A stretch of DNA of 64,000 nucleotides from Strigamia acuminata. Taxonomy: Eukaryota > Arthropoda > Chilopoda > Geophilomorpha > Linotaeniidae. Below the pieces are notes generated by a model. The model had not been told where the DNA came from, searched no databases, and worked only from the letters and a program-made list of their open reading frames with translations. The stretch is from assembly GCA_949358305.1 (NCBI GenBank), contig OX442323.1, positions 8,494,001 to 8,558,000 on the forward strand. The letters are read 5' to 3'. This document shows positions 217-61,996 of this stretch, piece after piece. Made by a program: the position numbers and the translations under genes. Each line of letters begins with the position of its first letter. The first letter of the stretch is position 1.

Positions 217-1175
217 CAAAACTGCTTCAAGGATGGTGGATTGGAAAAGGTGACAGAATAATATTTGATAAATTTTGCTCGATGTGAAAACTTATTTGAT
301 TTCTAATACAGCTCAATAAGGAGCGTATGGCTAAAATGTATGCCCCATTGATTAAGAAATGCAAGGAAGAAAAGAAAGATGTGGTAAATGCATAGATTTT
401 GATTAAAACTCATTTTGGTAGATGTAATATTAAAAAAATCTTATCTATTATTAACAGAATGATCCTGATTGTGAAAAATACATTCACGAGAAGGTAAACC
501 TTGATTAGTAGTATGTTTTACTGGAAAATCTAATTGACAATTTTGAATTAATAACAGAAACAAGCTGCGAAGAAAGAGTGTGAAGCTGAAGCTGGTAAAG
601 TAAGTTGCACATAAACTGTTTAGTTGTATTGAAATAATCCTAATCAACGAATGAAAACAGGACGACAAGGACAAATTGTGGAAGTGTGTCTCCAAGAAAC
701 TGGAAGAAGTAAGTCAAATTGTTTGCAATATCAATTCATACGTACACAACTGGTTTTATATAAAATAGGTTGATAACAAAGAAGACTTTGTATTGGCAAC
801 CTTCAAGAATAAACTGCTTGATATAGTATTACCTGACGTAAGTTTGATTTTTATAGAAAATAAGCAAAAAAATTTAAATTGTTCAATTTCAACAGAAAAA
901 GAAGTCAGTTGAAGATGCAATCACTTCCTGTGAAAAGGAGAAGAAGGAGGACTTTGTAAGTGGGATTAAAATAAGAAAAATAACCAATATTAATTTTATT
1001 ATGATTATTATTATTATTATTATTATAACAGAAAGACTTCTTATGTGCGTTTGAAAAGTTGGAAGAAGTAAGTTATATAATTTTTCAAAGTAAATGGTAA
1101 TCAATAACATGTTTTTTTTTAAAGGCTTGTCTTGACTTCAAAAAGAAAACTCACGAAGATGAAGACAAACCATAA
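217..1175 (+). CDS. G1: type A secreted 8-Cys mini-exon protein (5' end off the window)
   Basis: Unrecognised secreted helical family; this copy lacks only exon 1. Exons: 217-249, 312-383, 458-493, 558-599, 661-708, 769-837, 896-955, 1032-1067, 1125-1175, all phase 0. It begins QNCFKDGGLEK and ends HEDEDKP followed by TAA. Each exon except the seventh exon of the family (769-837) carries one core cysteine, eight in all; the spacing of the last three is C-x12-C-x8-C. The exon 10 acceptor is the unusual TAAAG. AATAAA lies at 1228-1233. Exon by exon it is the closest relative of G2, and both share their 3' flank. Function unknown. The reading frame is open throughout, so it looks functional. Confidence 0.75.
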
Positions 1176-1233
1176 GATTAATAAATTACTCTCTGATTAA
1201 TTTTGTCTCTGTAAAGATGATGGAAAAAATAAA

Positions 1234-1690
1234 ATTATGATCTTATATTTACTGTATTTGTCAAATATCTCCATCAAATTCTCAGCAGATTTTCGAAAAA
1301 ATTAAACGCCAAATGATATTCATACATACAGAGTGTATAAGAAAAATGAATTCACACGCAAACAAAAAAATTCACGCAAACAAAAAACTTGTATAATTTG
1401 TTAATACTTAATTTATTCGACATCAAAAGATGAATACAAGTTACCTTTGACCTCTACCATTAGCATACAACTTCGACTTAAGAGATATCCCCCATGAAAG
1501 TGTGCACACACATTTTCTTGGCACACCCTAATGATTAGTGCAAACAAACATGGCGAGTTGGGACAAAAATTGATGAAAAGCACAAATCTGTCAAAAAGGT
1601 TTCAGATTACACACAAATGATTCTCACAGAATTTCACCCACATTCACAATGCAATACAAAGTTAAAAAATAATCTTGTTTTCATATTAAT
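1234..1690 (+). repeat. 3' flank duplicated downstream of G2
   Basis: This non-coding flank matches the sequence after G2 (about 7,795-8,120) nearly base for base, for example CTTGTATAATTTGTTAATAC and the CATGGCGAGTTG stretch. The match resumes at about 9,395-9,530. The G1/G2 duplication therefore included several hundred bases of 3' flank, and about 1.27 kb was later inserted behind G2. No gene is seen here. A TACAGGGTGAATGAAAAGTC stretch near 1,694 resembles a DNA-transposon terminus. Confidence 0.7.
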
Positions 1691-1919
1691 TATACAGGGT
1701 GAATGAAAAGTCTGTCACTTCACAAAATATTTCCAAAAGTGCTGACAATGCATCTAATCTAATGATGGCAAAGTACTAAAGTTGGGTGGGGCAATCTTTT
1801 GGTGATCCTTAATTTGACCTTCGGATGTTCCTTCAAGCTCATTTGAAAATTATCTCGGAAACCATTAGAGATAGACAGAAATTTCCAATTGTAAACTTGT
1901 AGAGCAACATTTATTTAGT

Positions 1920-2536: not shown

Positions 2537-2544
2537 AGTCAATA

Positions 2545-3942
2545 GGTGCATTCAAAGTCAAATGAATTATTTGACTGAAATGACTGATTTGACTGAAATG
2601 ACTTACAGTCACAGGAAATGATGCAATTTACATCATCAGATGATAATCGAAATTTGACAAATCATAATCTGCTTATTTTCATGATTTTTTACAAGCTTTT
2701 CAAGACTTTTCACCCAGTTTTTGACGATTTTTGACGATTTTTGACGATTTTTACGCAGTTTTTGACGATTTTTACGGAAGCTTTCACGATTTTTACCCAG
2801 TTTGTCACAATTTTTACCCTTTTCACCCAGTTTTTCATGATTTTACACGATTTTTATCCTGTTTTTCATTATTTTACACCATATTTACCGAATTTTTCAC
2901 AATTTTACACGATTTTTATCGTTAAATAAATTCAAAAATAAATTCAACAATTCAAATTAATCAAGAAAATCAAGAAAATCTAGAAAATGATGTTTTCAAG
3001 AAGTTGAAAGGTTTGTGAAGTCATCTGGTGCACTTTACGTGCTTTTCCTTGAAAATCTGGTCCAAAATATCCATAATTCTACTGGTTGAAATATCCGAAA
3101 CAATCCACACACTTCACGTGTATTTTTCTGGTCAAAATGTCCAAAATTCGCAATTTTCGCTGGTCTATGGTGTCCAAATCGATTCCCACACTTCACGTGT
3201 GTTTTCCTCTCGAAATTTGGGTCTTAAAAACGTCCAAAAACATGCAAAACGTTCAAAAAATGCCTCGCACGAATCCAAATGGTACAAATCGTCGTCTGGG
3301 CGCTTGTGAAGCACGTCCTTCGCGAACGTTTCGGCGACGTTCCTCGTTGTTTGCGAACGTCCGGGCGACGTTCCTCGTTGTCCGCGAATGTCCGTGCGAC
3401 GTTCCTCGTCGATTAGCGGTCGACGCCGCGAACGTGTCGGAAATGTGCGGCCCTGGAAATCGTATGATCGGCGTGCGCTCGAAAACATAAATTTGTGTTT
3501 AAAAATGTCAGCAATTACTAACCTTGCTTTTGCCTAAGTATGGCTGTTCAGCTAGGTAATGAGCACTGCTCATTTCTTGAGTCCTTGACCAGTTTCTTGC
3601 TGGATTCCTCTTTTCATGATAGACTGACTGGGGGCATCCATCTTGAATGACTTATTCCAGTGGCCAAATAAGTCATGTGCTCAGCCATGATTGGAGGAAT
3701 TTTTCCATCAGCCACTTATTGATAAGTCATGATTGGAGTGACTTATCAATAGGCCACTTATTGCAATTGAATTATCTTTTCAGTGATGTAAATTACATCA
3801 TTTCCTGTGGCTGGTAAGATATTTCAGCCACATCAGCCAAATAATTGTTCACTTTGTATGGAGTTTAACCAAATGACTTACATGAATTATTGATAATTCA
3901 GATTATGATAAGTCAAATTTGGATTTTAACTGTGAATGCACC
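2545..3942. mobile_element. 1.4-kb non-autonomous DNA element with terminal inverted repeats
   Basis: The ends read GGTGCATTCAAAGTCAAAT and, inverted, TTTTAACTGTGAATGCACC, flanked by TA on both sides, which suggests a TA target. Subterminal copies of CACAGGAAATGATGTAATTT are also inverted. Inside are an AT-rich array built on TTTTTGACGA (about 2,705-2,925) and a GC-rich array of about 30-bp units with CGACGTTCCTCGTTG (about 3,320-3,420). The last 205 bp (from about 3,738) recur almost unchanged at 5,831-6,036. No transposase frame is seen. Confidence 0.6.
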
Positions 3943-4371
3943 TAATCTATTTTTCAACAAAAATATTTATTTGTTATGTATAATTAGATAATACTGTAGT
4001 ACTGCAATTTATTCACCAGGCTGAAGTTGGCACCACATTCACACTCGCCCACACTACAGATAGAACAAATCCCAATTTTTTTTTAATCACGGATTTCAAT
4101 GGTTTTTACACGAAAAGATAGAGGACTTTCTTCTAAACAAACCGTGAACAGCACAAGTCTCTACTCCTCTTAGTTTTCGAGCAGCAAGCATTTGAATATG
4201 GCACAAAAAAGACTTTTACTAAATTTCCAAATCTGATGCCACAACTTCGAACCCCAATATCTCAACAACCTAATCACGGATTTTTTTTATTTAAATAACC
4301 TTCTCTACAAACCCTGAAAGGTACAACAGTCTACCCCTCTTAATTTTCGAGCAGCGAAAACTTAAACATTG
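3943..4371. repeat. Degenerate local tandem duplication
   Basis: Two related blocks (about 4,065-4,195 and 4,255-4,370) share TAATCACGGATTT, CTACTCCTCTTAGTTTTCGAG and GAGCAGC with drift. No gene is seen. The second block runs straight into the 12-bp minisatellite. Confidence 0.5.
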
Positions 4372-5579: not shown

Positions 5580-5636
5580 ATGAAATCTTGCTTTGTAGTT
5601 CTCTTGGTCGTCGTCTGCATTTCAGTAGCAGAAGCC
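5580..5636 (+). pseudogene. Orphan type A exon 1 with promoter (partial duplicate of G3)
   Basis: Encodes a type A signal peptide (starts MKSCFVVLL, ends VAEA) with a good donor GTAAGT, but exons 2-10 do not follow before the complete gene G2. From 5,296 to about 6,070 the sequence parallels 9,731-10,320, the promoter, exon 1 and start of intron 1 of G3, and then diverges. Its intron is interrupted by a 205-bp MITE at 5,831. It is most likely a truncated duplicate. Use as an alternative first exon of G2 is possible, since G2 exon 2 is in the same phase, but nothing supports that. Confidence 0.7.
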
Positions 5637-6595: not shown

Positions 6596-7715
6596 ATGAA
6601 ATCCTGCTTTGTAGTTCTGTTGGTCGTTGTCTGCGTTGCAGTAGCACAAGCAGTAAGCATAACCTCTTTTTATTTTGTTTCCTACGTACACATTGTTGAA
6701 AACATGGTTTCAAAGTGTGATGAATACTCTGTATGTTTTGTAATTGATAAGCAATCTGATTTATTTGTATGTAGCAAAACTGCTTCAAGGATGGTGAATT
6801 GGAAAAGGTGATAGAATAATATTTGATGAATTTTGCTCGATGTGAAAACTTATTTGATTTCTAATACAGCACAAAAAGGAGCATATGGCTAAAATGTTTG
6901 CCCCATTGATTAAGAAATGCAAGGAAGAAAAGAAAGATGTGGTAAATGCATAGATTTTGTTTAAAACACATTTCGATAGATGTAATATTTAAAAAAATCT
7001 TATTTATTATTAACAGAATGATCCCGATTGTGAAAAATACATTGACGAGAAGGTAAACCTTGATTAGTGGTATGTTTTACTGGAAAATCTAATTGACAAT
7101 TTTGAAATAATAATAGAAAAAAGCTGCGAAGAAAGAGTGTGAAGCTGAAGCTGGCAAAGTAAGTTGCACAGAAACTGTTTAGTTGTATTGAAATAATCCT
7201 AATTAACGAATGAAAACAGGACCACCACAAAATGTTTGTGTGTGTTTCCAAGAAACTGGAAGTAGTAAGTCAAGTTGTTTGCAATATCAATTCATATATA
7301 AACAACTGGTTTGATATAAAATAGGTATACAAAAAAGAGGACTTAGAATATGCAAACTTCAAGAAACAAACGCTTGATGTAGTATTACCTGACGTAAGTT
7401 TGATTTTTAGAGAAAATAAGCAAAAAAATTTAAATTTGTTCAATTTCAACAGAAAAAGAAGTCAGTTGAAGATGCCATCGCTCCCTGTGGAAAGGAGGAG
7501 GGCTTTGTAAGTAGGATTAAAATAAGAAAAACAACCAAAATTAATTTTATTATTTTTATAACAGAAAGGCTTGATCTGTGGAATTAAAAAATTGGCAGAA
7601 GTAAGTTATATAATTTTACAAAGTAAACAGCAATCAATAAAATATTTTTTTGAAGATTTGTCCCGACATCAAAGAAATGATAAAGAAATGTCACGGAGAT
7701 ATTGAAGAAATGTAA
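6596..7715 (+). CDS. G2: type A secreted mini-exon protein, 167 aa
   Basis: Complete ten-exon gene. Exons: 6596-6652, 6775-6807, 6870-6941, 7017-7052, 7117-7158, 7220-7264, 7325-7393, 7453-7506, 7565-7600, 7656-7715; all multiples of three, phase 0. Residues 1-19 (MKSCFVVLL through VAQA) form a signal peptide. The mature part is Lys/Glu-rich and predicted helical, with eight core cysteines (QNCF, IKKC, PDC, KEC, FVC, APC, LIC, ICPD) and a ninth in the tail. C-x10-C-x8-C spans exons 8-10. TATATAAA at 6539-6546 and AATAAA at 7788-7793 frame the transcript. Secreted; function unknown. The start is the first ATG after the TATA box and matches all paralogs. Confidence 0.85.
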
Positions 7716-10111: not shown

Positions 10112-11470
10112 ATGAAATCTTGCTTTGTAGTTCTCTTTGTCGTCGTCTGCGTTGCTGTAGCAGAGGCCGTAAGTGTGCACTATTAACCCTTGCAGTACAA
10201 ACCTAAAAAAAATCCCTTACTCACCCAACCTGGACATTTAAGCAATTCGGTATTTGCATTAGAGAGTGACAAAAATAATTGAGATTGTACTCGAACAAAG
10301 TGGGTAAACGAAGGAATATTGTAAAAAAAATTTTTTTGGTATTTTCAAATTTATTATTTTTTTATTGTTTGTTATGATGTTAAATGAAAATACCATAAAA
10401 TTGCAGAAATAAAATCCTGATAATTTTCGAGAAAAAAAATAGAAACATTTTTGGAGGTCAAAATTGACCCTAGGTAGCGGCAGGGGTTTCAAGTGTTTTA
10501 TATGTTAACCAATCTGATTTATTTTAATTTAGCAAAACTGCTTCAAGGATGGTGAATTGAAAAAGGTAATAAAACAATATTTTTTAGAAATTTGCGAAAA
10601 CTTATCTCATTTCTAATACAGCAAAAAAACGAGATGTTTGCTAAAATGTACGCTCCATTGATTCAGAAATGCAAAGAAGAGAAAAAGGTTGCAGTAAATA
10701 TTACATAGATTTAAAAACAAAAATTCATTTTGCTAGATATAATGTTAGAAAAATAATATTTATTATTAACAGACTGATGCCGAATGTCATAAATATGTTC
10801 ACGAGAAGGTAAACTTTGATTAGTAGTGTTTTACTGAAATTCTAATTGACAATTGTGAATTCATATCAGAAACAAGCCGCAAAGAAAGCCTGTGAATCTG
10901 AAGCTGGTTCAGTAAGTTGCACGTAGATTGTTATGTTTGATATTGAAGTAATCCTAATCCTAATCAACAAATGTAAACAGGACAAGAAAAAGAAGTGTGA
11001 ATGTGTTCACAAGAAATTGGGATTAGTAAGTCAAATTGTTTGCAATATCATTTCATGTAAACACAATACTAACTTGATGTTAAATAGGAAAAACAGGAAT
11101 TTGATATCACAGCCTACAAGACCAAATTGGGTAATGCAGCAGTAGCTGATGTAAGTTTGATTTTAAGAGAAAACAAAAACAGAAAATTAAAATTTGAATT
11201 AATTTAAACAGAAAAAAAAGATAGTTGAAGATGCAATCACTTCCTGTGACAAGGAGAAGGGCCATGTAAGTGCGATTAAAATAAAACAAATAATCCAAAT
11301 GACTGTCTTTTTTTTTAACAGAAAGCCATGAAGTGTGCGATGAAAAAAATGGCGGAAGTAAGTGCTATAATAATGTTCTATAAATGGAAACAATAAAATG
11401 CTTTTGTTTGAAGGGTTGTCCCGATGTCAAAGAAATGATGAAGAAATGCAAAGAAGCAAAAGAAGACTAA
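10112..11470 (+). CDS. G3: type A secreted mini-exon protein, 164 aa
   Basis: Exons: 10112-10168, 10533-10565, 10622-10693, 10773-10808, 10870-10911, 10981-11025, 11088-11150, 11212-11265, 11322-11357, 11414-11470, all phase 0. The signal peptide ends VAEA. Eight core cysteines are present plus an extra one in exon 6 (KCEC) and one in exon 10 (MKKC), an even total of ten. The C-terminal spacing is C-x10-C-x8-C. Intron 1 (364 bp) is the longest and holds no recognisable insertion. AATAAA at 11517-11522. Promoter and exon 1 were copied to 5,296-6,070. Secreted, function unknown, apparently intact. Confidence 0.85.
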
Positions 11471-12666: not shown

Positions 12667-13775
12667 ATGAAATCGTGCTTTGTAGTTCTCTTGGTCGTCG
12701 TCTGCGTTGCAATAGCAGAGGCAGTAAGTGTGCATTTTGTTTAAAGACAACAGTAGAACCAACTCACATAATATAATTAATAACTTGGTATCCAATCTGA
12801 TTTATTCTAATGTAGCAAAACTGCTTCAAAGATGGTGAATTTCAAAAGGTGGTAGAATAATATTTTTTATAAATTTGTGAAAACGTATCTGATTTTTAAT
12901 ATAGAAAAAAGACGAGATTTTTGCTAAAATTTACTCCACTGTGATTAGAAAATGCAAGGAAGAGAAGAAGGATGCAGTAAATACATAGACTTAAAAAAAA
13001 TCAATTTTGCTAAATATAATGTTAAAAATATAATTTATATTATTAATAGACTGATGCCGATTGTAATAAATATGTTCTTGAAAAGGTAAACTTTGATTGG
13101 AGGTGATTTACTCAAAATCTAATTGACAATTTTGAATTAATTTCAGAGGAAAGCTGCGGTAAAAGCTTGTGACGATGAAGCTGGTCCAGTAAGTTGCACA
13201 TAGATTGTTATATTTGATATAGAAGTAATCCTAAACCTAATCAACAAATGAAAACAGGGCAACAAAAGAAAGTGTTTTTGTGTTCACAATAAATTGGGAT
13301 TAGTAAGTCAAATTGTTTACAATATCATTTCATGTAAACACAATACTAACTTCATATAAAATAGGAGGGATTTAAAATCATAGACTACAAGACCAAAATG
13401 GGTGATGTAGCAGTATCTGGTGTAAGTTTGATTTTAAGAGAAAACAGAAACAAGAAATTAAAATTTGAATTAAATCAACAGAAAAGAAAGGTCGTTGAAG
13501 ATGCAATCACTGCCTGTAAAAAAGCGACGGGCCTTGTAAGTGCGATTAAAATAAGAAAAATAACCCAAATGACTGTCTTTTTTAAAACTTTTTATAACAG
13601 AAATCCATGAAGTGTGCGATAAATAATATGGCGAAAGTAAGTAATACAATAATGCTCTACACCGTAGTAAATGCAAACAATAAAATGCTTTTGTTTGAAG
13701 GTTTGTTCCGACGTTGAAGAAATGAAGTCGAGTAGTAAAGACGAAAAAAATAAGAAACGCAAAGGAAAAAAATAA
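12667..13775 (+). CDS. G4: type A secreted mini-exon protein, 168 aa
   Basis: Exons: 12667-12723, 12816-12848, 12905-12976, 13050-13085, 13147-13188, 13258-13302, 13365-13421, 13482-13535, 13601-13636, 13701-13775, phase 0 throughout. TATATAA at 12610. Signal peptide as in G2. Cysteines: eight core plus one extra in exon 6 (KCFC). Exon 7 (57 nt, EGFKIIDYKTKMG...) is shorter than in G1 and G2. The tail is extended and Lys-rich (NKKRKGKK). It is a near twin of G5, differing at few positions. No canonical AATAAA follows directly; ATTAAA-like words are present. Confidence 0.85.
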
Positions 13776-14973: not shown

Positions 14974-16077
14974 ATGAAATCTTGCTTTGTAGTTCTCTTG
15001 GTCGTCGTCTGCGTTGCAATAGCAGAGGCAGTAAGTGTGCATTTTGTTGAAAGCCAACAGTAGAACCAACTCACATAATATAATTAATAACTTGGTTTCC
15101 AATCTGATTTATTCTAATGTAGCAAAACTGCTTCAAGGATGGTGAATTGCAAAAGGTGTTAGAATAATATTTTTGATAAATTTGTGAAAACTTATCTGAT
15201 TTTTAACACAGAAAAAAGACGAGATTATTGCTAAAATTTACTCCACAGTGATTAAAAAATGCAAGGAAGAGAATAAAAAAGCAGTAAATACATCAATTTA
15301 AAAAAAAAAATCCATATAATGTTTGAAAAATAATATTTATTATTAACAGACTGATGCCGATTGTAATAAATATATGGTTGAAAAGGTAAACTTTGATTGG
15401 AGGTGATTTACTCAAAATCTAATTGACAATTTCGAATTAATATCAGAGGAAAGCTGCAATAAAAGCTTGTGACGATGAAGCTGGACCAGTAAGTTGCTCA
15501 TATGTTTGATATTGAAGTAATCCTAATCCTAATCAACAAATGAAAACAGGGCAAGCCAAGAAAGTGTTTTTGTGTTCACAATAAATTGGGATTAGTAAGT
15601 CATTTTTTTTACAATATCATTTCATGTAAACACAATACTAACTTCAAATAGGTGGGATTTAAAATCGCAGACTACAAGACCAAAATGGGTGATGTAGCAG
15701 TATCTGGTGTAAGTTTGATTTTAAAAGAAAACAAAAAGAAGAAATTAAAATTTGTATTAATTCAACAGAAAAGAAAGGTAGTTGAAGATGCAGTCACTGC
15801 CTGTGGAAGGGCGACGGGCATTGTAAGTGCGATTAAATTAAGACAATTAACCCAAATGACTGTATTTTTTTTAAAAATCATTATAACAGAATTCCTACAT
15901 GTGTGCGATAAATAATTTGGCAAAAGTAAGTAATACAATAATGTTCTATACCGTAGTAAATGCTTTTGTTTGAAGGTTTGCCCCGACGTTACAGAAATAA
16001 AGTTTGGTAGTAAAGAAGAAAAAAGTAAGGAAAAAAACGTAAAAGAAAAAAATAAGAAACGTATAGGAAGAAAATAA
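14974..16077 (+). CDS. G5: type A secreted mini-exon protein, 177 aa
   Basis: Exons: 14974-15030, 15123-15155, 15212-15283, 15350-15385, 15447-15488, 15550-15594, 15652-15708, 15769-15822, 15890-15925, 15976-16077, all phase 0. Near duplicate of G4 in exons and introns. Differences are a tail lengthened to 33 residues, rich in Lys and Glu, and exon 9 reading NSYMCAINNLAK. The TATA position has decayed to CATATGA (about 14,918), so expression may be reduced even though the frame is intact. Secreted; function unknown. Confidence 0.83.
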
Positions 16078-31436: not shown

Positions 31437-31467
<31 letters not shown>

Positions 31468-45518: not shown

Positions 45519-46709
45519 ATGAATTCCTGTCTATTTCTCTTGGGTTTGGTTTTGGTAGCAACCGCCGAACTGGTAAGCCGTATCTAATAGTTTTGGTTAT
45601 TATTATTTTATATTTTTTATATAGGACACATGCTTTGATGGGGAGGTAATATATTAATCGCAACATTTTGATAAATTGTACCTAAATAAACCTTAAAAAA
45701 TTAAGAAACTATTTGCAAGTTATGAGACCAGAAATAAAGCCATTCAGCAGAAGGGTTTATCAGCTTGCAGAAAAGAGAACCCAAAATCAGTAAACTCAAT
45801 TGTTTTAATCTAAGTTGACTATTAAAATTATGTGAAAATAATTTATTCACAGGATGAAAATGGTATCATTAAATGTTACAATGACAGGGTAAAGCCTCTA
45901 TTAATCGTTATCAATGTTTATAAATTCCGAATAAATTCAATTTCAGGTTACAGCAACCGAAGCAGCGTGCAAGAAAACAGTAAGTTAAATTCATGTTTAC
46001 GATTCAAATATTAATCAATCGGTAAAAATATAGTTCACAATGGAATACAACCTCTGCGTGGACAAACACATGGGAATTGTGAGCCAAATTAATCCAATCT
46101 AATCCCGTCCGTTAAAATATTTTTATTTACATGCACTAGACCAGGCCATATCTGTATGATTTCAAGAAATATAAGACCTATAGACTCGATCCAGTACTAG
46201 ATGGTGTAAGTTAAATTCTAGAATTTATAAAAGAAACTGTTTGTTGACATAAATTTGTGTAGAAAAAGAAGATGGTTGAAGAAGCGATAACTCCGTGCGA
46301 AAAGGAAAAGGTAAAGTGAATTGAAAACCATAAAATAACAAAAATAATGCTGCTTTTGTATTAGTATTACATAGACTGTGCTCGTACAAATTTGGCAAAA
46401 GTATGTACAAGGGAGTCTCATAAGTATCTTTATAGATTAAAAATTACAAAGTGGCTACGCCCACGTCCGACGTGAACGTATTGTTTTCAAGAAGAATACA
46501 TCGATTTGAGAAAACTTACATTGAGGAAACGAAGGGCCATCGTTAGCTCTCAACCAATCACAGCGCGCCTTGAAAATAATACGTTTACGTTGGACGTGAA
46601 CGTAGCTACTGCCTTAAAATTAATATGTTAATGTAGTTTTCTTTCAAAGGTCTGTCAGGAGATGAAGGATGCGGTAGAATTGATTGAGAAACGTAAAAAA
46701 TCAGTATAG
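45519..46709 (+). CDS. G16: type B secreted 8-Cys mini-exon protein, 160 aa
   Basis: Exons: 45519-45572, 45625-45645, 45706-45789, 45853-45888, 45947-45979, 46034-46078, 46140-46205, 46263-46310, 46365-46400, 46650-46709, phase 0. TATAAA at 45464. Shortest signal peptide (MNSCLFLLG... ATAEL, 18 codons). Exon 2 encodes only DTCFDGE, exon 3 is 28 residues with an AAG acceptor, exon 5 is the shortest (33 nt). Eight core cysteines; C-x8-C-x8-C. Intron 9 holds a MITE. Exon 3 places it with G15 and G21. Function unknown. Confidence 0.83.
46449..46613. mobile_element. MITE in intron 9 of G16
   Basis: ACGTCCGACGTGAACGTATT at the left and AATACGTTTACGTTGGACGT at the right are imperfect inverted repeats, with GTGGCTACG and CGTAGCTACTGCC at the extremities. 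Relatives G14, G15 and G18 lack it. Confidence 0.7.
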
Positions 46710-48546: not shown

Positions 48547-50314
48547 ATGAAGTGCTTTGCTCTTCTCTTGTTGGCAGTCTGCACCGTAGTGTCCACGGAC
48601 GAGGTAATCACCCAAAAACCTTCTTTCAAACAATTTCTAATTAACTTCAATTAGGAAAACTGCTTCGATGAGAAAGAATTTGAGTCGGTGCAAGAAAAAC
48701 TAAAGATAGAAAGGCTAAACTTAGTGACAGCAGACCACAAATCAGTCGACAAATCATTGGTAAATATATTCTGCGACTCCACCTTGAGCCTTTGATAGAG
48801 TGACCAATATTTGAAAATTTTCAAAAACTTTATAAAACTTTACCATATTACCTCACATAAAGCGACATGCCGTTGCGCATAGGTTTACCAGGTTTTTAAA
48901 ATTACGTACCAAAAGTTTATATCGAACATTATTACGGTATTAGAGAGTTTGCGGGATGCATTTTTCCCTTACACTATTTTTCCCTTACACTATTTTAGTG
49001 CCATATCGTAAGGGAAAAATGTTTAGTGTATCGTTTTGAACACTAAATTAAAATATAGCGCAGCCAATCCGGTAGTTTTCCACTATTTACGTCACAGAGC
49101 CTTTAAATTTGGATTAGCAACGACCTCATTCGCCGCCATTTTAATTTCTTCGCTTCGATCGCACAAAGGGCACGTATTAAGGTTTATATCATTGTTTTCT
49201 CTTTCATTTGGTTTTAATTCACAATAATAAAGGTGCTTCATTGTTTTGAAGCAGTAAAATACAACAATTGTCTTTAATTTTTTTCAAAAGAGACTGCTAC
49301 AGTTTCGGTGATCACGTGACATAGTGAAATAGTGTAGTTTTAAGGGGAAAATGCAGCCCGCAAACTCTCTAATATGTAATACCCTTGAAATATTCAGTTA
49401 CACCGGCATGCTGTTAAAAACGAGGTTTATCGGCATGCCGGTATAACTCGCACCACACCGACATGCTTAATGTGAGATAATAAGGTAATTTTTTTTTGAA
49501 AAATAATTATTTTATGATTGGAAATGTGGTCACCCTGGCTTGTGATATTTATCTGGTATTTATCTCATAATTCTAGTCCGATGATTACGCTGAAGCTATA
49601 AAGACGGTAAATAGTTATTAATCTTCTATAGCTAAAGATTATTTAATAATGATCACAAATAACGAAAGAATTAAATATTTATTTTATTTATTAATTTTAT
49701 AAATTCCAAATAAATTCAATTCCAGATTATAGCAGCATATGATATTGAAGCATCATGCAAAGACGCAAAGAGAGTAAGTTAAAATCAAATCTTTCGATTC
49801 AAATTTTAATTATTTAACAACAATAAAGGTCACAATGGGAAGATACATCTGCTTAATCAAACATTTGAAATATAATTATGGAATTGTGAGTCACATTATT
49901 CCAATCTTTTTCAATCTGTTGAAATATTTTTATTTGTACTTATTAGACCGATGAAATTTTTAATGATTTCGCAAATTACACAACTATTTTGCTCTCTTAT
50001 ACACTAGATGATGTAAGCTTAAGTTAAATTTTAGAATTTATAATAGGAACAATTTGTTGACGCAAATTTGTGTAGAAAAAGAAAATAGTTGAAGAAGCGA
50101 TAACTCCGTGCGAAAAGAAAAAAGTAAGTTGACTTGAAAATCATAAAATAAGAAAAATAATGCTGCTTTTGTATTAGAATTACAAGTACATAGACTGTGT
50201 TGATAAAATTTTGACAAAAGTACGTACAAAGAGTCTCACAAATATCTTTACAAATTAAAATGTGGTTTTCTTTCAAAGGTCTGTCTGGACGTAAAGCAGG
50301 ACCTAGAGTATTGA
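48547..50314 (+). CDS. G17: chimeric C/B secreted protein, 162 aa, six core cysteines
   Basis: Exons: 48547-48603, 48655-48759, 49577-49606, 49726-49773, 49829-49885, 49947-50012, 50076-50123, 50178-50219, 50279-50314, all phase 0. TATAAA at 48495. The 5' part (MKCFALLL..., fused exon 2+3, short intron wording) is type C like G12. From the intron before 49,726 onward sequence and exon layout are type B (AAATTCAATTCCAG acceptor, invariant exon 8, separate exon 9). The cysteines of exon 3 and exon 4 are both gone, leaving six. Exon 9 is expanded to 14 residues. The frame is open. Two nested MITEs enlarge intron 2. Confidence 0.78.
48841..49487. mobile_element. MITE in intron 2 of G17, host of a nested element
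   Basis: TACCATATTACCTCACATAA and TGTGAGATAATAAGGTA are imperfect inverted ends, with subterminal GACATGCCG and CGGCATGCCGG. It is split by the element at 48,943. Confidence 0.65.
48943..49369. mobile_element. Nested MITE with GAGAGTTTGCGG ends
   Basis: GAGAGTTTGCGGGATGCATT and its near-complement AATGCAGCCCGCAAACTCTC, flanked by TA. The inner wording TTCCCTTACACTATTT is repeated. Related ends occur at position 16 and at 60,304. Confidence 0.75.
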
Positions 50315-50819: not shown

Positions 50820-50859
50820 ATTAACTGATATTTATCTGATATTAATCTCATAATTCCAG

Positions 50860-51045
50860 AGCGATTCTGGCGCTCAAAAGTGTGCTATAGAGACGGTAAA
50901 AAGTTATAAATCTTCTATAGTTAAAGATAATTTAATAATAATTACAAATAATGAGAAATTATAATATTTATTTTATTTATTTATTTATTTTATAAATTCC
51001 AAATAAATTCAATTCCAGTTTCAAGCGGCAGCTGATGCACGCAAG
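50860..51045 (+). pseudogene. Gene fragment: exon 4 and part of exon 5 of a C/B-like copy
   Basis: 50860-50895 encodes SDSGAQKCAIET, matching exon 4 of G12 with its donor. From 51019, after AAATTCAATTCCAG, FQAAADARK begins a type B exon 5 that loses homology within 27 bases and joins the next promoter. The C-to-B switch lies in the same intron as in G17, so this is probably a remnant of the same chimera. Confidence 0.7.
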
Positions 51046-51282: not shown

Positions 51283-52476
51283 ATGAATTCCTGTCTATTT
51301 CTTTGTGTTTTGATTTTGGGCTGCGCTGCAGCAACCGCCGAACTGGTACGCTTACGACAATATAATGTCGAGTAATTTTGATTGTTATAATGTTTTGTAA
51401 TATTTTAATCTAGGAAAATTGTTATAAACCAATAGAAGAGGTGATATAATATATTTATCTCAACATTTTGATACATTTCATCTAAATGTTATAAATTTAA
51501 AAGCACCCGGACGAAATGAAACCATTTAAAAAGAAACTTACAGAAAAATGCTTGAAAGAAAACCCAAAATTAGTAAACGCAATGGTTTTAATCTTAGCTG
51601 ACTATTAATATTATGCGAAAATAATTTATTCACAGGATGAAAATGAAGCCGAAAAATGTATAAACGACAAGGTAAAAACATCTACAGTCTAAACTCTAAA
51701 CAACGAATCGCAAGTGACCTGATAAAATCGATTCGTCATAACGAGAATATACTGCCAGCCAAACCAGCCATTTTTATGTATTCGTCATAACGATAATTCG
51801 TTGTATCGCGATTCGTTATAAAGAGTTTTGACTGTACTAATAATCAACGATTTTTATAAATTCCAAACAAATTCAATTCCAGGCGGAAGCAGCATATAAA
51901 GCATGCAAAACCGCAAAGTTTGTAAGTTAAATTCAAATCTTTTTATTCAAATTTTAATTCATCGACAACAATAAAGGCCTCAATGGAACAACGCATCTGC
52001 ATCGACACTAAATTAGGAATTGTAAGTCACATTATTCCAATCTTTTTCAATCTGTCGAAATATTTTAATTTCTACTCATTAGACCACACCACTTCTGTAT
52101 GATTTCAAAACATACAAGACGCACGTTCTCGATTTAGCACTAGCCGATGTAAGTTAAATCTATTATTTGTAAAAGATACAATTTGTTGAGACAAATTTGT
52201 TTAGAAAAAGAAAACAGTTGAAGATGCCCTAACTCCGTGCGAAAAGGAAAAAGTAAATGAAATTGAAAATCACAAATAATAAGCAAATTAATTGCTGTTG
52301 TATTAGTATTACAGAGACTGTGCTCAAATAAAATTGGCAAAAGTATGTACAAAAAATCTCGTAAGTATCTTTACAAATTAAAATTAATGCGGTAATGTGG
52401 TTTTCTTCCAAAGGTCTGTCAGGAGACGAAGTTTCTGCTTCAATATATTAAGAACCAACGTGAAAATACAGAATAA
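51283..52476 (+). CDS. G18: type B secreted 8-Cys mini-exon protein, 163 aa
   Basis: Exons: 51283-51345, 51414-51440, 51504-51572, 51636-51671, 51883-51921, 51977-52021, 52083-52148, 52205-52252, 52307-52342, 52414-52476, all phase 0. TATAAA at 51228. Starts MNSCLFLCV. Exon 3 (HPDEMKPF...EKC) has an AAAAG acceptor. Eight core cysteines and the C-x8-C-x8-C end. Exons 5 and 7-10 are closest to G19 and G22. The exon 8 donor is GTAAAT. A pogo-like MITE lies in intron 4. Stop overlaps an AATAAA run. Function unknown. Confidence 0.83.
51685..51834. mobile_element. Pogo-like MITE in intron 4 of G18
   Basis: CAGTCTAAACTCTAAACAAC at the left, GTTATAAAGAGTTTTGACTG at the right, flanked by TA. Shorter inside than the copies in G13 and G22. 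Confidence 0.78.
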
Positions 52477-53216: not shown

Positions 53217-54747
53217 ATGAATTGCTGCCTAGTTCTTTTGCTTCTGGTTTTGGCCTGCGCGGCAGCAAACGCCGAACTGGTACGCTTACGACAATATAAT
53301 GTCGAATAATTTTGATTGTTATTATGTTTTGTAATATTTCAATCTAGGAAAAATGTTACAAACCAATGGAAAAAGTGATATAATATATTGTTACGTGGCC
53401 AACTGGCCAATAATGACCACGTAACTTATAACTTGTTTATTACTCATCATTTAATAACTAAGAGTGAAATGAACAGGAGTCAGAGTTTAGGTTGAAATAT
53501 AAACTATGTTCTTTTATTCTTTAATTACAAAACATAAACTTAATTGAAATCATAAAACTAAACCTAAAACTAAAGTAAACATTAAGACTAAAGACATGAA
53601 TAACACCTTCTCTCTTATTTGTGAACTAATCATGCCATATACTGGCTGAAACATTAATCATTAGAAGTCCTGGGAAGACTGAGGTCCAAGAGTCAAAGTG
53701 CCTCTTTTATACCCAAGTCACCCCCCTGAGTTAGTTCTAATTGACTCGCCCGTGATGTCACCATCACGTACGCAGTCTAGTGATAGATTTTGACAACTCT
53801 AATAACATTTGTGCTGGTTTGAGACGGTCGGCAGACGACGCGACTCAACCGCATGACAATATTTATATCTCAACATTTCGATACATTTTATCTAAATGTT
53901 ATAAATTATAAATTTTACAGGCAGATCAGAAGAATTCTCTAACACCACTTGAAAAGGAAGTTATAGATAAATGCATGAAAGAAAACCCAGAATTAGTAAA
54001 CGCAATTGTTTTAATCTTAGCTGACCATTAACATTATGTGAAAATAATTTATTCACAGGATAAAAATGGTACCATAAAATGTGCAAACGACAAGGTAAAA
54101 ACCTCGACGTACCTACTAATAATTAACGATTTTTATAAATTCCAAATAAATTCAATTTTAGGTTAAAGCAGCATTTGAAGCATGCAAAACCGCAAAGTCT
54201 GTAAGTTAAATTCAAATCTTTCGATTCAAATTCAAACAATAAAGTTCTCAATGGAAAAATCCATCTGCCTGGACAAACAATTAGGAATTGTGAGTCACAT
54301 TATTCTATTTTTTTTTAATCTGTCGAAATATTTTTATTTCTATTCATTAGACCACGGCAGTTCTGTATGATTTCCAAAAATACAAGACGCTCGTTCTCGA
54401 TTTAGCACTAGCCGATGTAAGTTAAATCTATGATTTATAAAAGATACAATTTGTTGAGGAAAATTTGTTTAGAAAAAGAAAATAGTTGAAGATGCCCTAA
54501 CTCCGTGCGAAAAGGAAAAAGTACATGAAATTAAGAATCACAAATAATAACCAACTTAATTGCTGTTGTATTAGTATTACAGAGACTGTGCTCAAATAAA
54601 TTTGGCAAAAGTATGTACAAAGAGTCTAACAAGTAACTTTACAAATTAAAATTAATATGCTAATGTGGTTTTCTTTCTAAGGTCTGCCAGGAGACGAAGT
54701 TTCTGCTACAAATCATTGAGAATCATCGTAATAAACTAAAACAATAA
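53217..54747 (+). CDS. G19: type B secreted 8-Cys mini-exon protein, 166 aa
   Basis: Exons: 53217-53279, 53348-53374, 53921-53995, 54059-54094, 54162-54200, 54245-54289, 54351-54416, 54473-54520, 54575-54610, 54682-54747, phase 0. TATAAA at 53160. Starts MNCCLVLLL. Exon 2 EKCYKPMEK, exon 3 ADQKNSLTPL...DKC, exon 8 KKKIVEDALTPCEKEK. Eight core cysteines. The exon 8 donor is GTACAT, off consensus. A solo LTR fills intron 2, and intron 4 lacks the pogo-like MITE but has extra bases at its site. Function unknown. Confidence 0.82.
53389..53858. mobile_element. Solo LTR in intron 2 of G19
   Basis: 470 bp starting TGTTACGTGG and ending CGCATGACA, bounded by the 4-bp duplication ATAT (53385-53388, 53859-53862). 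No internal retroelement sequence. TG...CA ends plus a short target duplication suit a Ty3/gypsy or BEL LTR left by recombination. Splice sites of the intron are unaffected. Confidence 0.75.
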
Positions 54748-56051: not shown

Positions 56052-57234
56052 ATGAATTGCTGCGTAGTTCTTTTGCTTTTGGGCTGCGCTGCAGCAGCCG
56101 CCGAACTGGTACGCTTACCACAATATAATGTCGAGTAATTTTTGTATATTGTTACAATCCGTGACAAAAATCACTAGTTTATGAATGCTATCCTTTCGTC
56201 CGCTGGTCTAGGCAATTATTTTCAACATGAGTATGAATGCGGTATGATCGACATACTCATATATCTCGCGATGTACTGCAAAGGCGACATATCGCAAAAT
56301 TTACAAAACATCAGAAAAATATTGTTAATCGCAATATATTGCCTCGCTCAAATTTTCTGATAATAAACAAACGTGAGCACAAACAGAGTTGTTCAATATC
56401 TCTTCTATTATACGTAGGGGCTGCCATACTGGGCGCCACATGCGTAAGAGCAACGTTGCCCCTACTCATAAGAATTGTATGCCTAAGCGCAACAACGATA
56501 ATTTGTATTTTAAGATAGTTTTAGCTTCCAATATTGCACCCTCGGTGACCTATGTCACTCCACACACTGCCTAGTGGTCCCAAGGCCGTCCCCCCTTGTG
56601 GAGTGGACTGGCTTAGTTGGGGAGGAGGGAGCTGAGTGGTGTGGTGAGAGAGAGACGTCTTTGGGAGAACTGAGAGAAAGGACGTGTAGTACTCGGGAGA
56701 AAAGTGTGTGCTGTTGCGGTCCCAACGCCAGCAGAAGCTACCCTGCATGCTACTACCTCTGCTGCTCTCACCATTCACCACGTTGACGCTCAGTAACATG
56801 GCGTAGTGCCTGTTGCAGCCTCCATGAGTGATCGCATGAAGAATGATCGTCCAGATTAACCAACCACGTCACCCATGGGACTCAGGTCGTTCTTACGTGA
56901 GTATGCGTCCCTCTCATTGTAGTCAATCCCCAGACTGCAGTGGGTAAGACCATATCCAGTCACAGAGTGTTATAATATATTTATCTCAATATTCTGATAA
57001 ATTTAACCAAATGTTAAAAATTATTTTGCAACAGAATGAGGCAGCTCAGTACGAGAAACAAATTGTAACACGGTGAAAAAAAGAAGACCCAAGATTAGTA
57101 AACACATTAGTTTTAATCTTAGTTGACACACCATATTAACACAACGAGGAAATAATTTCTTAGATACATGACATGGTTGTTTGAGGGATCTCCAGGTTAG
57201 ACCAGCTACCGCAGCATGCAATGACACGAAGATG
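56052..57234 (+). pseudogene. G20: disrupted type B gene
   Basis: Exon 1 (56052-56108, MNCCVVLLL...) is intact with donor GTACGC, but intron 1 breaks into repeat sequence and exon 2 is missing. An exon 3 relict (57035-57097) has TGA at codon 14, where the conserved cysteine should be. Exon 4 is absent; an exon 5 relict (57196-57234, VRPATAACNDTKM) still has its donor. Nothing further follows before the inverted G21. Certainly non-functional as a full protein; exon 1 may still be transcribed. Confidence 0.8.
56150..56960. other. Insertion inside G20: repeat plus GC-richer unclassified block
   Basis: 56,150-56,420 includes the dispersed repeat also at 50,440 and 63,690. 56,420-56,960 is richer in GC (GGAGGAGGGAGCTGAG, GCAGAAGCTACCCTGCATG) with no recognisable protein, ending near GACCATATCCAGTCACAGAG. 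Origin unknown. Confidence 0.45.
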
Positions 57235-57430: not shown

Positions 57431-59742
57431 TTATTTATTTTTTTTGTTTGTTTGTTCTTTTCCAAGTTCCTCAATAATTTCTTGCCACTCCTTCGGCTCA
57501 CGACAGAACTTTGAACAAAAACCACATTACCGTATTAATTTTAAATATAAAGATACCGTATATCCTCGGGTATATGCCGACCCGGTGTATAAGCCGACCC
57601 CCCCCTCCCCCATTCTGAGGCACCATTTTGCTAATAAATGGTGTATGCGAGTATAAGCAGAGTACGTCAAGATGTTGTGAAATTTAGTCGAAAATTGATG
57701 AAATTTACTACAATTTAGTCGATAATTGATGAAATTTACTACAATTTAGTCGAAAATTGATTAAATTGTCTACAATTAAGTCGAAAATTGATGAAATTGA
57801 CTACAATTTAGTCGAAAATTGATGAAAGTGTCTACAATTTAGTCGAAAATTGATGAAATTGACTGATTGTTGGATGGTTGGTCTTACGTATACGTTACAA
57901 TTTTTTTTTTAAATATGCGTGTATAAGCCGACCCCCCCAAATGGGCAGGGTTCAAATTTGCGCGACTCGAATTTGCGCGACCCGGTAAAAAAAATCCCAA
58001 GTTCGCGCAAATCAAATTTGCGCGATTCAAATTTGCGCGATTCAAATTTGCGCAGACCCAAATTTGCGCCGACCCAAATTTGCGCCGACCCAAATTTGCG
58101 CGAATTCGTTTGTTGCGAACGTGCGTGTGCAGGCGTGTTTCGTGCGTCGAACGTACGTGTGCGGGCGTCGGCGTAGAACGAGTGTGTGCGGGCGGCAACT
58201 TGCGTGTGCGGGCGTCGGCTTAGAACGTGCGGGCGTCGGCTTAGAACTTGCGGGCGTCGGCTTAGAACTTGCGTGTGCGGGCGTCGGCGTCGAACGAGCG
58301 TGTGCGGGCGTGTTTCGTGCGCAGGCGAGCGTGTGGTGCTTGTGCGTGAATTTTTTAACTTCAAATAGTTATTTTTACAAAATTGAAGAAAACAATGGTA
58401 AGGAAGGACTCCCATTGGTGAGAGATAAACAAATTCAAAGAACTCAGAATTTGTGGGTCACAACAGGTCAGGCTCCTGCCGACCTATGACGCGAAGAGGC
58501 GGCCGCCTCTTGGTCTCATGGGTCGGCATGGCCCTGCAACAGGTGATGGCCAGATGTGACAAATTTGCGCAAATTTGGACCGGCGCAAATTTGGGTCGGC
58601 GCAAATTTGGACCGGCGCAAATCTGGGTCGGCGCAAATTTGAGCCGCGCAAATTTGGTCCACTTTGCGCCAATTTGAGTCTGCGCAAATTTGAGCCAAAA
58701 TAAACACGGCGCAAATTTGGGTCGCGCAAATTTGGTGCTGGCCGCCCCAAATAGAGGTCCAAACTTTCAAATAAATTTCTCGGCTTATACCCGAGGATAT
58801 AAAGTACTTGTAGTTATGAGACTCTTTGTACATACTTTTGCCAAATTTGTAAAAGCACAGTCCATGAAATACTAATACAAAAGCAGCATTATTTTTGGTA
58901 TTTTCTGATTTTCAATTCAACTTACTATTTCATTTTCGCACGGAGTTATCGCTTCTTCAACTATTTTCTTTTTCTACACAAATTTGCGTCAACAAATTGT
59001 TTCTGTTATAGATTCTAAATTTAACTTACATCATCTAGTATTGAATAGAGTACGTGGGTCTTGTATTTTTTAAAATCATACAGAAATTCGGTGGTCTAGT
59101 ACATTTAAATAAAAATATTTTAACGGACGGGATTAGATTGGATTAATTTGACTCACAATTCCCAATTGTTTGTCCATGCAGAGGAAGTATTCCATTGATA
59201 ACTATATTTTTACGATTAATTAATATTTGAATCGATAAACATGAATTTAACTTACAATCTTTGTGTTCTTCTTGCATGCTGCAATGGCTGCAATAACCTG
59301 AAATCGAATTTATACGGAATTTATAAACATCGATAATGATTAATCGGGGCTTTACCTTGTCACTGTTACATTCGTGGGTATCATTTTTATTCTGTGAATA
59401 AATTATTTTTGCTTAATGTTAATAGTCAACTTAGATTAAAACAATTGAGTTTACTAAATTTGGGTTCTCTTTTCTACAAATTGCTGTAACCTTCTGCCAA
59501 AAGGCTTTACCGGAAGAGTCAAAACTTGCTTGTAGTTTCTTAATTTTGTAAGGTTTGAGTACAATTTATCAAAATTTATTGATTAATATATTACCGTCTC
59601 ATTATAGCACTGTTCCTACATGAAAAATATAAAATAATAATAACCAAAACTATTAGATATTGTATATCTGGCTTACCAGTTCGGCAGTTGCTGCCAAAAC
59701 CAAAACCAAAACCAAACCCAAGAGAAATAGACAGGAATTCAT
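57431..59742 (-). CDS. G21: type B secreted 8-Cys mini-exon protein on the minus strand, 173 aa
   Basis: Exons in order: 59742-59677, 59615-59595, 59538-59455, 59391-59356, 59297-59256, 59201-59157, 59095-59030, 58973-58926, 58871-58836, 57508-57431, phase 0. TATAAA at 59795-59800 (minus). Signal MNSCLFLLG... lengthened by VLVL repeats. Exon 2 is 7 residues (EQCYNET) and exon 3 is 28, the linked pair shared with G15 and G16. Eight core cysteines. Intron 9 is swollen to 1.3 kb by a transposon-like insertion, the longest intron of the cluster. The tail ends TNKKNK. Frames and splice sites look intact; whether the long intron is removed needs RNA. Confidence 0.8.
57557..58802. mobile_element. 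1.25-kb repeat-filled element in intron 9 of G21
   Basis: Left end TATATCCTCGGGTATATGCC and right end GGCTTATACCCGAGGATATA are inverted. Inside: six copies of a 31-bp unit with GTCGAAAATTGATGAAATT (57,685-57,865); an array of CAAATTTGCGCGAC-like words (57,955-58,110); a GC-rich array around GCGGGCGTCGGCTTAGAAC (58,120-58,330); and at 58,560-58,740 GCGCAAATTTGGGTCGG words, the inverse of the left array. No transposase. Confidence 0.7.
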
Positions 59743-60214
59743 TGTTTCTGCTACTTCTCGGTAGCTGAGCCTGATGGTGATGTGTTGAATGTGATTTATA
59801 CGAAGAAAATTGACTCGTTTTCAGCACAATTTATTCAACAACTTCGTGATAGAAATTGAATTTGAAATTCCGAATGAGACGTGCATGCGGTGTTACAAAG
59901 AAACACGATATTTGCGTTGATAAAATCACACAATAAACAAGAAAAATTGAATACAACGGATATTGTATAACGCCACATTCCACATTTATTTAGTTCTCCA
60001 TTTTTTCACAAGTGCTTAATTCTTTTTCATCTTTTTTTGTGTTTTTTTATAAAACCCCATGAAAGACTGCACGTTATGCGTCTCATGTCGCATTTAATAC
60101 TCAATTTCTCACGAAACATTTGAATAAATTGTGCTGAAAACGAGTCTGTATCGTTCGTATAAATCACACTCAACACATCACCAGTTACCAGTTACCGAGA
60201 AGTGAGCAGAAACA
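59743..60214. promoter_or_regulatory. Head-to-head promoter region between G21 and G22
   Basis: 472 bp separate the divergent start codons. TATAAA lies at 59795-59800 for the minus gene and at 60158-60163 for the plus gene. The two halves are different spacer cassettes joined near 60,033 (TCATCTTTTTTTGTG to TTTTTTTATAAAACC), marking an inversion junction. Confidence 0.65.
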
Positions 60215-61996
60215 ATGAATTGCTGCGTAGTTCTTTTGGTTTTGGTTTTGGGCTGCGCTGCAGCAAACGCCGAACTGGTAAGCCCACGACAATACATACA
60301 TTAGTGAGTTTGCGGTTGCTAATTGTTCCTTATAATTATGAGTTACAAGCTCATAATTATAATTATAATTCCTTCTTGAAATAGGCACTTGCGGTGCAAT
60401 AAATATATTTTATAAATTATACTTATAAATACCATGTAATGGTAGAACAAATCCCTATGCAAAAGAAAATGAAAATCTCTAGTTTTACTAATTTGACAGT
60501 TTTCAGACATGAAATTGTCTTCCAGTTTATTTATTTGCTTACCTGGAATGGTTTTAGTTGTTTTTATCCTTCGATGGCAGAAAGAAATTGTGATTGAGGC
60601 TGATTGTTGAAACAGGTCAGGCAGCCATTTTGAATTTCCATTAGCACCATCAGCGCCATTTGCAATAGTGGGAGGAGCTTCAAATAGTGTTAAGCGATCT
60701 GATTGGCTCCCTTATTTTACAAAATAGTGTAAAAGTTGAGGAGTTACGTTATGTTGTAAGTCCATTTTTATAATTATGAGCTTATAACTCATAATTATAA
60801 AGAACAATTGGCAACCGCAAACTCACTAATGTCTTGAAATTTTGAGTGTTATTATGTTTTGTAATATTTTAATCTAGGAAAAGTGTGTTAAACCAAAAGA
60901 AAAGGTGATATAATATATTTATCTCAATACTTTGACACATTTTATCTCAATGTTATAAATTAATACGAAACAGGCAGATCCGAAAAACTCCCTTACAAAA
61001 GTTCAGAAGCTAGTTATAGAAAAATGCATGAAAGAAAACCCAAAATTAGTAAACGCAATAGTTTTAATCTTAGCTGACTATTAACATTATGGGAAAATAA
61101 TTTATTCACAGGATAAAAATGGAACCGTAAAATGTTTAAACGACAAGGTAAAAACCTCTACAATCTAAACTCTATATAACGAATCGCAAGAGACTCGAAA
61201 AATCGATTCGTTAAAACGATAATTCGTTATATCGAAATTTTTTAACATGGTGTTATAAAACCAGCCAACCAAACCAGCCATTTTTAGGTATTCGTTCCAC
61301 CAATAATTCGTTATATCGTGATTCGTTGTAAAGAGGTTTGACTGCACTAATAATCAACGATTTTTACAAATTCCAAATAAATTCAATTCCAGTCGGAAGC
61401 AGCATACAAAGCATGCAAAACCGCAAAGTTTGTAAGTTAAATTCAAATCTTTCGATTCAAAATTTAATTCATCGACAACAATAAAGGGCTCGATGGAACG
61501 ACAACTCTGCGAGTACAAACAATTAGGAATTGTGAGTCACATTATTCCAATCTTTTTCAATCTGTCGAAATATTTTTATTTGTACTTATTAGAAGAATGA
61601 ACTTCTTCATGATTTCGCAAAATACAAAGCTCACATGCTCGCTAATGTACTAGATGATGTAAGGTTAAGTTAAATTTTAGAATTTATAAGAACAACAATT
61701 TGTTGACGCAAATTTGTGTAGAAAAAGAAAATAGTTGACGAAGCGATAACTCCGTGCGAAAAGGAAAAAGTAAGTTGAATTGAAAATCATAAATTAACAA
61801 AAATAATGCCGCTTTTGTATTAGTATTACAAGGACTGTGCTGATGAAAATTTGGCAAAAGTATGTACAAAGACTCTCTTAAGTATCTTTACAAATTAAAA
61901 TTAATACGCTAATGTGGTTTTCTTTCAAAGGTCTGTCTGGAGTACAAGAAACGACAAGAAATCATTGAGAAACTTCAGAAAAGAATAAATAAATAA
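60215..61996 (+). CDS. G22: type B secreted 8-Cys mini-exon protein, 166 aa
   Basis: Exons: 60215-60277, 60878-60904, 60974-61048, 61112-61147, 61393-61431, 61487-61531, 61593-61658, 61722-61769, 61824-61859, 61931-61996, phase 0. TATAAA at 60158. Starts MNCCVVLVL. Exon 3 (ADPKNSLTKV...EKC) is nearest to G19, exon 5 (EAAYKACKTAKF) to G18, exon 7 (KNELLHDFAKYK) to G13: a mosaic. Eight core cysteines; C-x8-C-x8-C. Intron 1 holds a 523-bp MITE and intron 4 the pogo-like MITE. The coding end runs into AATAAATAAA. Function unknown. Confidence 0.83.
60304..60826. mobile_element. MITE with GTGAGTTTGCGGTTGC ends in intron 1 of G22
   Basis: GTGAGTTTGCGGTTGC and GCAACCGCAAACTCAC are exact inverses, flanked by TA. 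Subterminal TTCCTTATAATTATGAG words are repeated inverted. Relative of the element at 48,943. Confidence 0.8.
61161..61344. mobile_element. Pogo-like MITE in intron 4 of G22
   Basis: CAATCTAAACTCTATATAAC and GTAAAGAGGTTTGACTG form the ends; TA is clear at the left. Same position as in G13, G14 and G18. Confidence 0.75.

Follow-up and report, generated by a model that had tools for sequence, protein, structure and literature searches.

Families of secreted proteins built from many small exons have been described in gall aphids and in schistosomes, and we compare with them here a tandem array of phase-0 mini-exon genes for small secreted proteins, found in a 64,000-nucleotide stretch of Strigamia acuminata DNA (C11:8494001-8558000, within a 237.5-Mb genome; hereafter the window). 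The bicycle genes of gall aphids, as portrayed in the consulted sections of two papers, have ~17 exons on average with internal exons almost all in phase 2, and many of their products carry CYC motifs and adopt saposin-like folds (PMC9168663, PMC13041983). On that partial description, the array genes are like bicycle genes in their many small exons of uniform phase, their secreted products and their membership of a large family that evolves fast and resembles other proteins little or not at all, but unlike them in having phase-0 introns throughout (168/168) and 8–10 exons per gene in the window. The CYC motif of many bicycle proteins occurs in none of 20 array proteins.

The micro-exon genes (MEGs) of Schistosoma, in the portion of the published account drawn on here, have exons of 6–81 bp, mostly 15 bp, separated by introns from 100 bp up to almost 5000 bp (PMC10526429). 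They resemble the array genes in having a signal peptide and short exons, most of them divisible by three. Gene structure as so described sets the array apart, with exons of 21–117 nt and a median intron of 63 nt; furthermore, each array module except exon 7 has a near-fixed cysteine, and a single array locus was found as opposed to MEGs on eight chromosome pairs. A first-pass annotation of the window had proposed that the layout matches neither family, and this holds for bicycle genes (phase 2) and MEGs as these sources describe them (PMC9168663, PMC10526429). Among the open-licence papers listed by our literature searches, none was recognised as describing a phase-0, one-cysteine-per-exon family. 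We regard the array as a further case among mini-exon secreted families of uniform phase; the searches reported below detected no protein relatives of it. Being in phase 0 and carrying roughly one cysteine per exon, it adds a case in another animal group beside aphids (phase 2) and schistosomes, one that is apparently independent.

Gene structure and extent of the array

The presence of a phase-0 mini-exon array inside the window was confirmed. Loci were mapped by exon-by-exon profile searches across the 263 kb surrounding the window, in which ten short exons recurring in a fixed order constitute the family unit. The first pass yielded 36 modelled loci, each with no fewer than three exon hits, 34 on the plus strand and 2 on the minus strand; loci with fewer than three hits, among them 56052 and 67392, stand outside this list (loci are named here by window coordinates). 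The array exceeds the window, covering ~135 kb from −27.3 kb to +108 kb, with an outlier at +149 kb, all on C11. Whole-genome searches with two members, in which only the best candidates were scored, returned a single piece on C3 and a single weak match on C1 besides the C11 matches. The features of the window are as follows.

217..1175, plus strand: gene 1, exons 2–10, open (exon 1 falls at −84..−28, to the left of the window)
5580..5636, plus strand: lone exon 1 fragment
6596..7715, plus strand: gene, 10 phase-0 exons, open
10112..11470, plus strand: gene, 10 phase-0 exons, open
12667..13775, plus strand: gene, 10 phase-0 exons, open
14974..16077, plus strand: gene, 10 phase-0 exons, open
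18986..20560, plus strand: gene, 10 phase-0 exons, open (exon 9 at 20352–20387)
21011..22582, plus strand: gene, 10 phase-0 exons, open
23469..25224, plus strand: gene, 10 phase-0 exons, open
25431..25483, plus strand: stray fragment of exon 5
25854..26966, plus strand: pseudogene without the usual exon-1 donor (loss judged by eye) and exon 4
27413..27770, plus strand: pseudogene, exons 1–3 only, exon 1 with a stop
30679..31751, plus strand: gene, 10 phase-0 exons, open
32392..33438, plus strand: third-clade gene, 8 exons (2+3 fused, 8+9 fused), open
38614..39852, plus strand: gene, 10 phase-0 exons, open
40294..41519, plus strand: gene, 10 phase-0 exons, open
42577..43641, minus strand: gene, 10 phase-0 exons, open
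45519..46709, plus strand: gene, 10 phase-0 exons, open
48547..50314, plus strand: chimeric gene, 9 exons, open; exons 1–4 clade 3, exons 5–10 clade 2
50826..51018, plus strand: fragment with hits to exons 4 and 5, resembling clade-3 loci
51283..52476, plus strand: gene, 10 phase-0 exons, open
53217..54747, plus strand: gene, 10 phase-0 exons, open; intron 2 with an insertion at 53375–53865 that by eye resembles a transposable element
56052..57234, plus strand: pseudogene consisting of exon 1, a transposable-element-like insertion at 56130–57000 (interruption judged by eye) and an exon-5 remnant
57431..59742, minus strand: gene, 10 phase-0 exons, open; 1.3-kb intron 9 holding tandem repeats
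60215..61996, plus strand: gene, 10 phase-0 exons, open

As the first-pass annotation had claimed, the window contains 19 open gene models of 8–10 exons, three pseudogenes (25854, 27413 and 56052) and further fragments (5580, 25431 and 50826). All 19 models are open from ATG to stop, with 10 exons in seventeen genes, 9 in 48547 and 8 in 32392. Every exon is divisible by three (187/187), and every intron (44–1327 nt) is GT-AG and in phase 0. The boundary search imposed phase 0, and its check consisted of choosing splice sites by consensus alone within 15 nt. When chosen with no phase rule, 144 of the 149 internal exons were multiples of three, compared with about one third expected, and the consensus site coincided with the model site at 162/168 donors and 161/168 acceptors. 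None of the 149 internal exons contains a stop in the model frame, while 89 and 120 contain one in the other two frames.

The assignment of a signal peptide to exon 1 and of about one cysteine to each other exon was likewise borne out. Exon 1 is a signal peptide by its reading and differs by clade, beginning MKSC.., MNSC/MNCC.., MK(Y/C)FA.. or MASYLL... The mature chain of 135–167 residues has eight near-invariant cysteines in a typical gene, one conserved in each of exons 2–6 and 8–10 (e2–e6 and e8–e10 below), and exon 7 is without cysteine in 18 of the 19 window genes. As exceptions, three genes have an extra cysteine in exon 6, three have one in exon 10, gene 30679 has them in exons 7 and 8, and 48547 has lost both the exon-3 and the exon-4 cysteine. 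The gene +106627, beyond the window, has six exons, with exons 5 and 6 fused and most of exons 2–4 missing, and is open, its exons all being multiples of three (6/6) and its five introns GT-AG. Together with the 8-exon gene 32392, it bears out the proposal that whole exons can be absent or fused in phase. A TATA-like box is present upstream of 28 of the 36 loci, broken loci included, and at 17 of the 36 it lies 24–40 nt ahead of an initiator-like site. A test of 28 exon pairs for internal duplication gave p values of 0.001 for e5–e8, 0.042 for e3–e8 and 0.059 for e6–e9, which is suggestive only of a possible duplication of exons within the gene.

Divergence, selection and exchange between copies

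Rapid diversification, to which the first-pass annotation considered the architecture suited, is supported by comparison of exons with introns, by pairwise substitution ratios and by site models. Exons had diverged more than introns in 12 of 12 hand-picked paralogue pairs (from 0.127 vs 0.041 down to 0.052 vs 0.044); these pairs overlap, and eight without a shared gene can be drawn from them. Gap sizes in pairwise gene alignments were multiples of three for 13 of 20 exon gaps as against 12 of 68 intron gaps. The remaining seven exon gaps measured 1, 1, 1, 5, 13, 31 and 46 nt and probably sit at exon or gene ends. The ratio of nonsynonymous to synonymous divergence (dN/dS), computed for 209 pairs of loci with at least eight exons, had a median of 0.73 and exceeded 1 in 29 pairs, and among the 30 pairs of lowest dS it exceeded 1 in 18. 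By exon, pN/pS was lowest in exons 2, 8 and 1 (0.56–0.65) and highest in exons 6 and 10 (1.00 and 1.01).

Codon models fitted to loci with at least nine exons gave a gene-wide omega of 0.74–0.79 in clade 1 and 0.99–1.22 in clade 2. Site models were compared with a self-written test, whose M0 agrees with IQ-TREE and in which branch lengths were fixed up to scale. Model M2a improved on M1a both in clade 2 (15 genes, 121 codons; likelihood-ratio test statistic 150.9, ~24% of codons at omega 4.9) and in clade 1 (12 genes, 127 codons; statistic 22.3, ~24% of codons at omega 2.5). Tests of this kind can be inflated by recombination among copies. The site models favour positive selection acting on proteins in which eight cysteines are near-fixed.

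The proposal that exons could be swapped without a frameshift found direct support in the chimeric gene 48547. Its first part belongs with clade 3, the segment 48300–48842 being 82–85% identical to two clade-3 loci and 49489–49681 being clade-3-like at 81%. From 49695 onward the identity is 75–82% to clade-2 genes over most of the length, the best-scoring being the gene at 68630. The junction at ~49681–49695 lies in intron 4, between the end of exon 4 at 49606 and the start of exon 5 at 49726, and 9/9 exons are open. Exons 4, 5, 6 and 9 measure 30, 48, 57 and 42 nt in 48547 and 36, 39, 45 and 36 nt in 51283, all differences being multiples of three. This open chimera, joined inside intron 4, supports the view that copies can swap parts in frame via phase-0 introns. 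This raises the question of whether uniform phase itself is favoured for keeping recombinants in frame.

Likeness to odorant-binding proteins and competing explanations

Profile searches against known families, a check that the first-pass annotation had suggested, gave no clear hit to a well-known family. The names that Pfam returned below threshold varied from member to member and were rejected (DUF1505, CfAFP, Meg, NRN1, Ectatomin and others); the Pfam scan of the +106627 protein returned no names, even below threshold. Run on 5.8 billion database proteins, a phmmer search from a single member (31 candidates) and one with a 15-member profile (7991 scored) both found nothing at E ≤ 10; searches of this kind reach only relatives of similar length sharing short words. 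A control with five odorant-binding proteins (OBPs) in the same database returned 90 hits, 86 of them with PF01395, so that the database does hold arthropod proteins. Single-member searches of the PDB gave two transketolases (E 0.17) and four unrelated proteins (E 0.4–1), all dismissed, and further single-member searches gave no hit. The genome search for the OBP domain found none at the cut-off and one match only, in L051 (E 0.136; 19.7 bits vs a cut-off of 22), which was judged by eye not to be an OBP gene. The genome has just 3 chemosensory-protein matches, all weak although they reach the cut-off (best 26.1 bits); this scarcity and the OBP-domain result are unlike a typical insect. Cuticle-protein domain matches numbered at least 54, which marks the host as an arthropod, and crustacean-type neurohormone matches numbered 4, which does not discriminate between groups. 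On the minus strand of C157, a cox1 match (3248-4588) ends at 3248 and a cox2 match begins at 3075. With about 50 residues allowed for the remainder of cox1, a tRNA would have little space between them; a tRNA-Leu in that place is a mark of crustaceans and insects, so that the arrangement points away from both, short of proof. The host is probably not a winged insect.

We tentatively prefer to read the array products as secreted, four-disulphide helical carriers of the odorant-binding type, which have diversified through gene duplication, selection on single sites and recombination within introns. There is good support for the architecture and for the way it has diversified; the carrier function is what we infer from cysteine spacing and related features. 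The odorant-binding idea was guessed from the cysteines and recorded before its testing, and OBPs were chosen for the spacing comparison only after the cysteine pattern had been seen. Insect OBPs have the spacings C1-X25..30-C2, C2-X3-C3, C3-X36..42-C4, C4-X8..14-C5 and C5-X8-C6, and LUSH, for comparison, has X28, X3, X41, X10 and X8. Among the 18 window genes with an e3 cysteine, the e3–e5 spacing is X26 in 17 and X29 in 1; e6-X36..44-e8, e8-X8..12-e9 and e9-X8-e10 hold in all 19. In a set of 20 proteins that includes +106627, 18 have the four OBP spacings other than C2–C3. The exceptions are 48547 and +106627, both with a C3–C4 of X44 and without C1, and +106627 also with a C5–C6 of X9. Random placement of eight cysteines does as well in 190 of 200,000 trials. 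Up to E 10, the family profile hit nothing in the PDB but the pheromone-binding protein of a cockroach, twice (E 0.18 and 0.24), and 0/300 column shuffles reached the score of that protein; the score of a beetle relative, THP12, was reached by 3/300, a slight signal. Profiles were also compared by hhalign with a set of 92 proteins (86 of the 90 control hits and six others). In that alignment five of the six insect cysteines are by eye in register, and its score was reached by 0/100 family-column shuffles and 0/150 full shuffles of the OBP side. Selected sites in clade 2 (posterior >0.5) were more hydrophobic than all other non-cysteine sites (p = 0.012).

A number of results weigh against a carrier of this type. 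No family in the Pfam scans of the proteins rose above its cut-off. The motif CxxxC occurs in 0/20 mature proteins, so that there is no C2-X3-C3, the e5–e6 spacing being X10–X14; as this defining spacing fails, we do not file the family as OBP. Permutations of the proteins' own gaps match in about 2% of cases (54/2520 and 106/5040). With the family profile, no signal came from four of six insect OBPs (LUSH, silkworm, mosquito and bee). A second profile of the family misses the cockroach protein, its sole PDB hit being a phage protein (E 0.43). The hhalign probability was 0.1% against five insect proteins and 3.3% against the 92 proteins (score 19.4, P 0.013); other anchors gave P 0.007–0.016, the reversed alignment scored 16.4 vs 19.4, and 3/150 cysteine-keeping shuffles reached the real score. 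The hydrophobicity of selected sites in clade 2 has p of 0.05–0.09 when compared with variable sites only, and in clade 1 they are not significantly more hydrophobic (p 0.08–0.25). Helix tests were clearly below 0.05 in 2/16 cases for the hydrophobic moment and in 1/16 for the selection moment.

Compared with insect OBPs (PF01395), the array proteins are similarly small and secreted and have similar C1–C2, C3–C4, C4–C5 and C5–C6 spacings, but they lack C2-X3-C3, have two extra cysteines and do not match PF01395. OBP genes of Myzus persicae have 5–9 exons, according to the part of the source available (PMC7380018), and aphid OBP introns are long, unlike the short introns of the array. The OBP-like proteins of Varroa, as far as the consulted text of their description goes, have six cysteines placed unlike those of insects, with bridges C1–C6, C2–C3 and C4–C5 (21/141, 41/68 and 111/132 in VdesOBP1), and the cockroach pheromone-binding protein is among their good structural fits (PMC8222343). 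With positions compared from that paper only, their C2–C3 (X26) and C5–C6 (X8) equal the array e3–e5 and e9–e10 spacings, whereas the array proteins have eight cysteines, a differently placed C4 and other spacings that differ. In the PDB searches, neither family profile hit the Varroa protein structures. The e3 and e4 cysteines are absent together in two genes, 48547 and +106627, which suggests that they may pair with each other.

If the products are such carriers, the mature chain would be a helical bundle with four disulphides (e3–e4, e5–e6, e8–e9 and e2–e10), and it would bind small hydrophobic ligands so as to carry or sequester them, with a different ligand for each copy. The locus itself is a single birth-and-death array, a typical gene having its own TATA and initiator-like core promoter, in which copies arise by tandem duplication, change under positive selection as favoured by the site models and, in one chimera, have recombined inside a phase-0 intron. 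A more specific version, which we consider rather unlikely, would make it a carrier family of a non-insect arthropod composed of two-exon, one-disulphide helical-hairpin modules, with selection at the binding sites and reshuffling through phase-0 introns, possibly a bridge in that it combines insect and mite cysteine arrangements. Carriers, if that is what the proteins are, would bear on the origin of insect OBPs.

The first-pass annotation had thought of effectors, defence or venom-like proteins. On this explanation an arms race would have diversified the surface of the secreted proteins rather than a ligand pocket, and the resemblance to OBPs would be due to chance. It is doubtful but a serious candidate: strong diversifying selection, exons outpacing introns, the birth and death of copies within the tandem array and near-fixed cysteines all suit it, as do chains that by eye are lysine-rich and the lack of any homologue at E ≤ 10 among the candidates from 5.8 billion proteins, although 86 PF01395 proteins were retrieved. 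It accounts less readily for the more hydrophobic selected sites of clade 2 and for the fit of four of five spacings to carriers. The spacing of the cysteines, together with the kind of sites under selection, hints, weakly, at a ligand-binding carrier at least as well as at an effector, defence or venom protein.

Fast evolution and tandem duplication are common among reproductive proteins, and the site-model results would also suit seminal or egg-coat proteins diversified through sexual conflict; however, the sequence holds nothing pointing to a reproductive tract, and we consider this explanation improbable. That the array is mostly dead, with few genes expressed and open frames as leftovers, appears highly improbable. 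Within the window the three pseudogenes and the various fragments agree with it, as do incomplete loci outside, such as 149052, in which no open exon 4 was found; however, neutral decay is expected to leave stops and frameshifts, whereas all 19 models are open, cysteines are near-fixed and splice sites kept despite considerable divergence, and TATA-like boxes stand at most loci.

Repeats, stray pieces and neighbouring genes

Two stretches occur twice around the array, one of 1.4 kb at −4092..−2680 and 2540..3952 (99.9% identity) and one of 1.2 kb at −20928..−19767 and −9088..−7927 (100% identity); both are either mobile elements or duplications of very recent date. Scanning the whole window for Rfam families and for tRNAs gave no match. 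An AT-rich region at 4372–5296 holds a perfect 12-bp tandem repeat (GGGGAGCCCGCT; ~77 copies, 100% matches), and a 188-bp tandem repeat (four copies, 97% matches) occupies 28298–29043, near a truncated array pseudogene. The stray piece on C3 (C3:8143435-8144071; L052 2435-3071) is ~640 bp long and joins the last exons of a clade-3-like gene to clade-2-like upstream sequence. Matches to the cuticle-protein domain Chitin_bind_4 were found at C11:8624027-8632801, in the interval that separates the outlier gene from the main array, and at 8681735-8686225, beyond the outlier.

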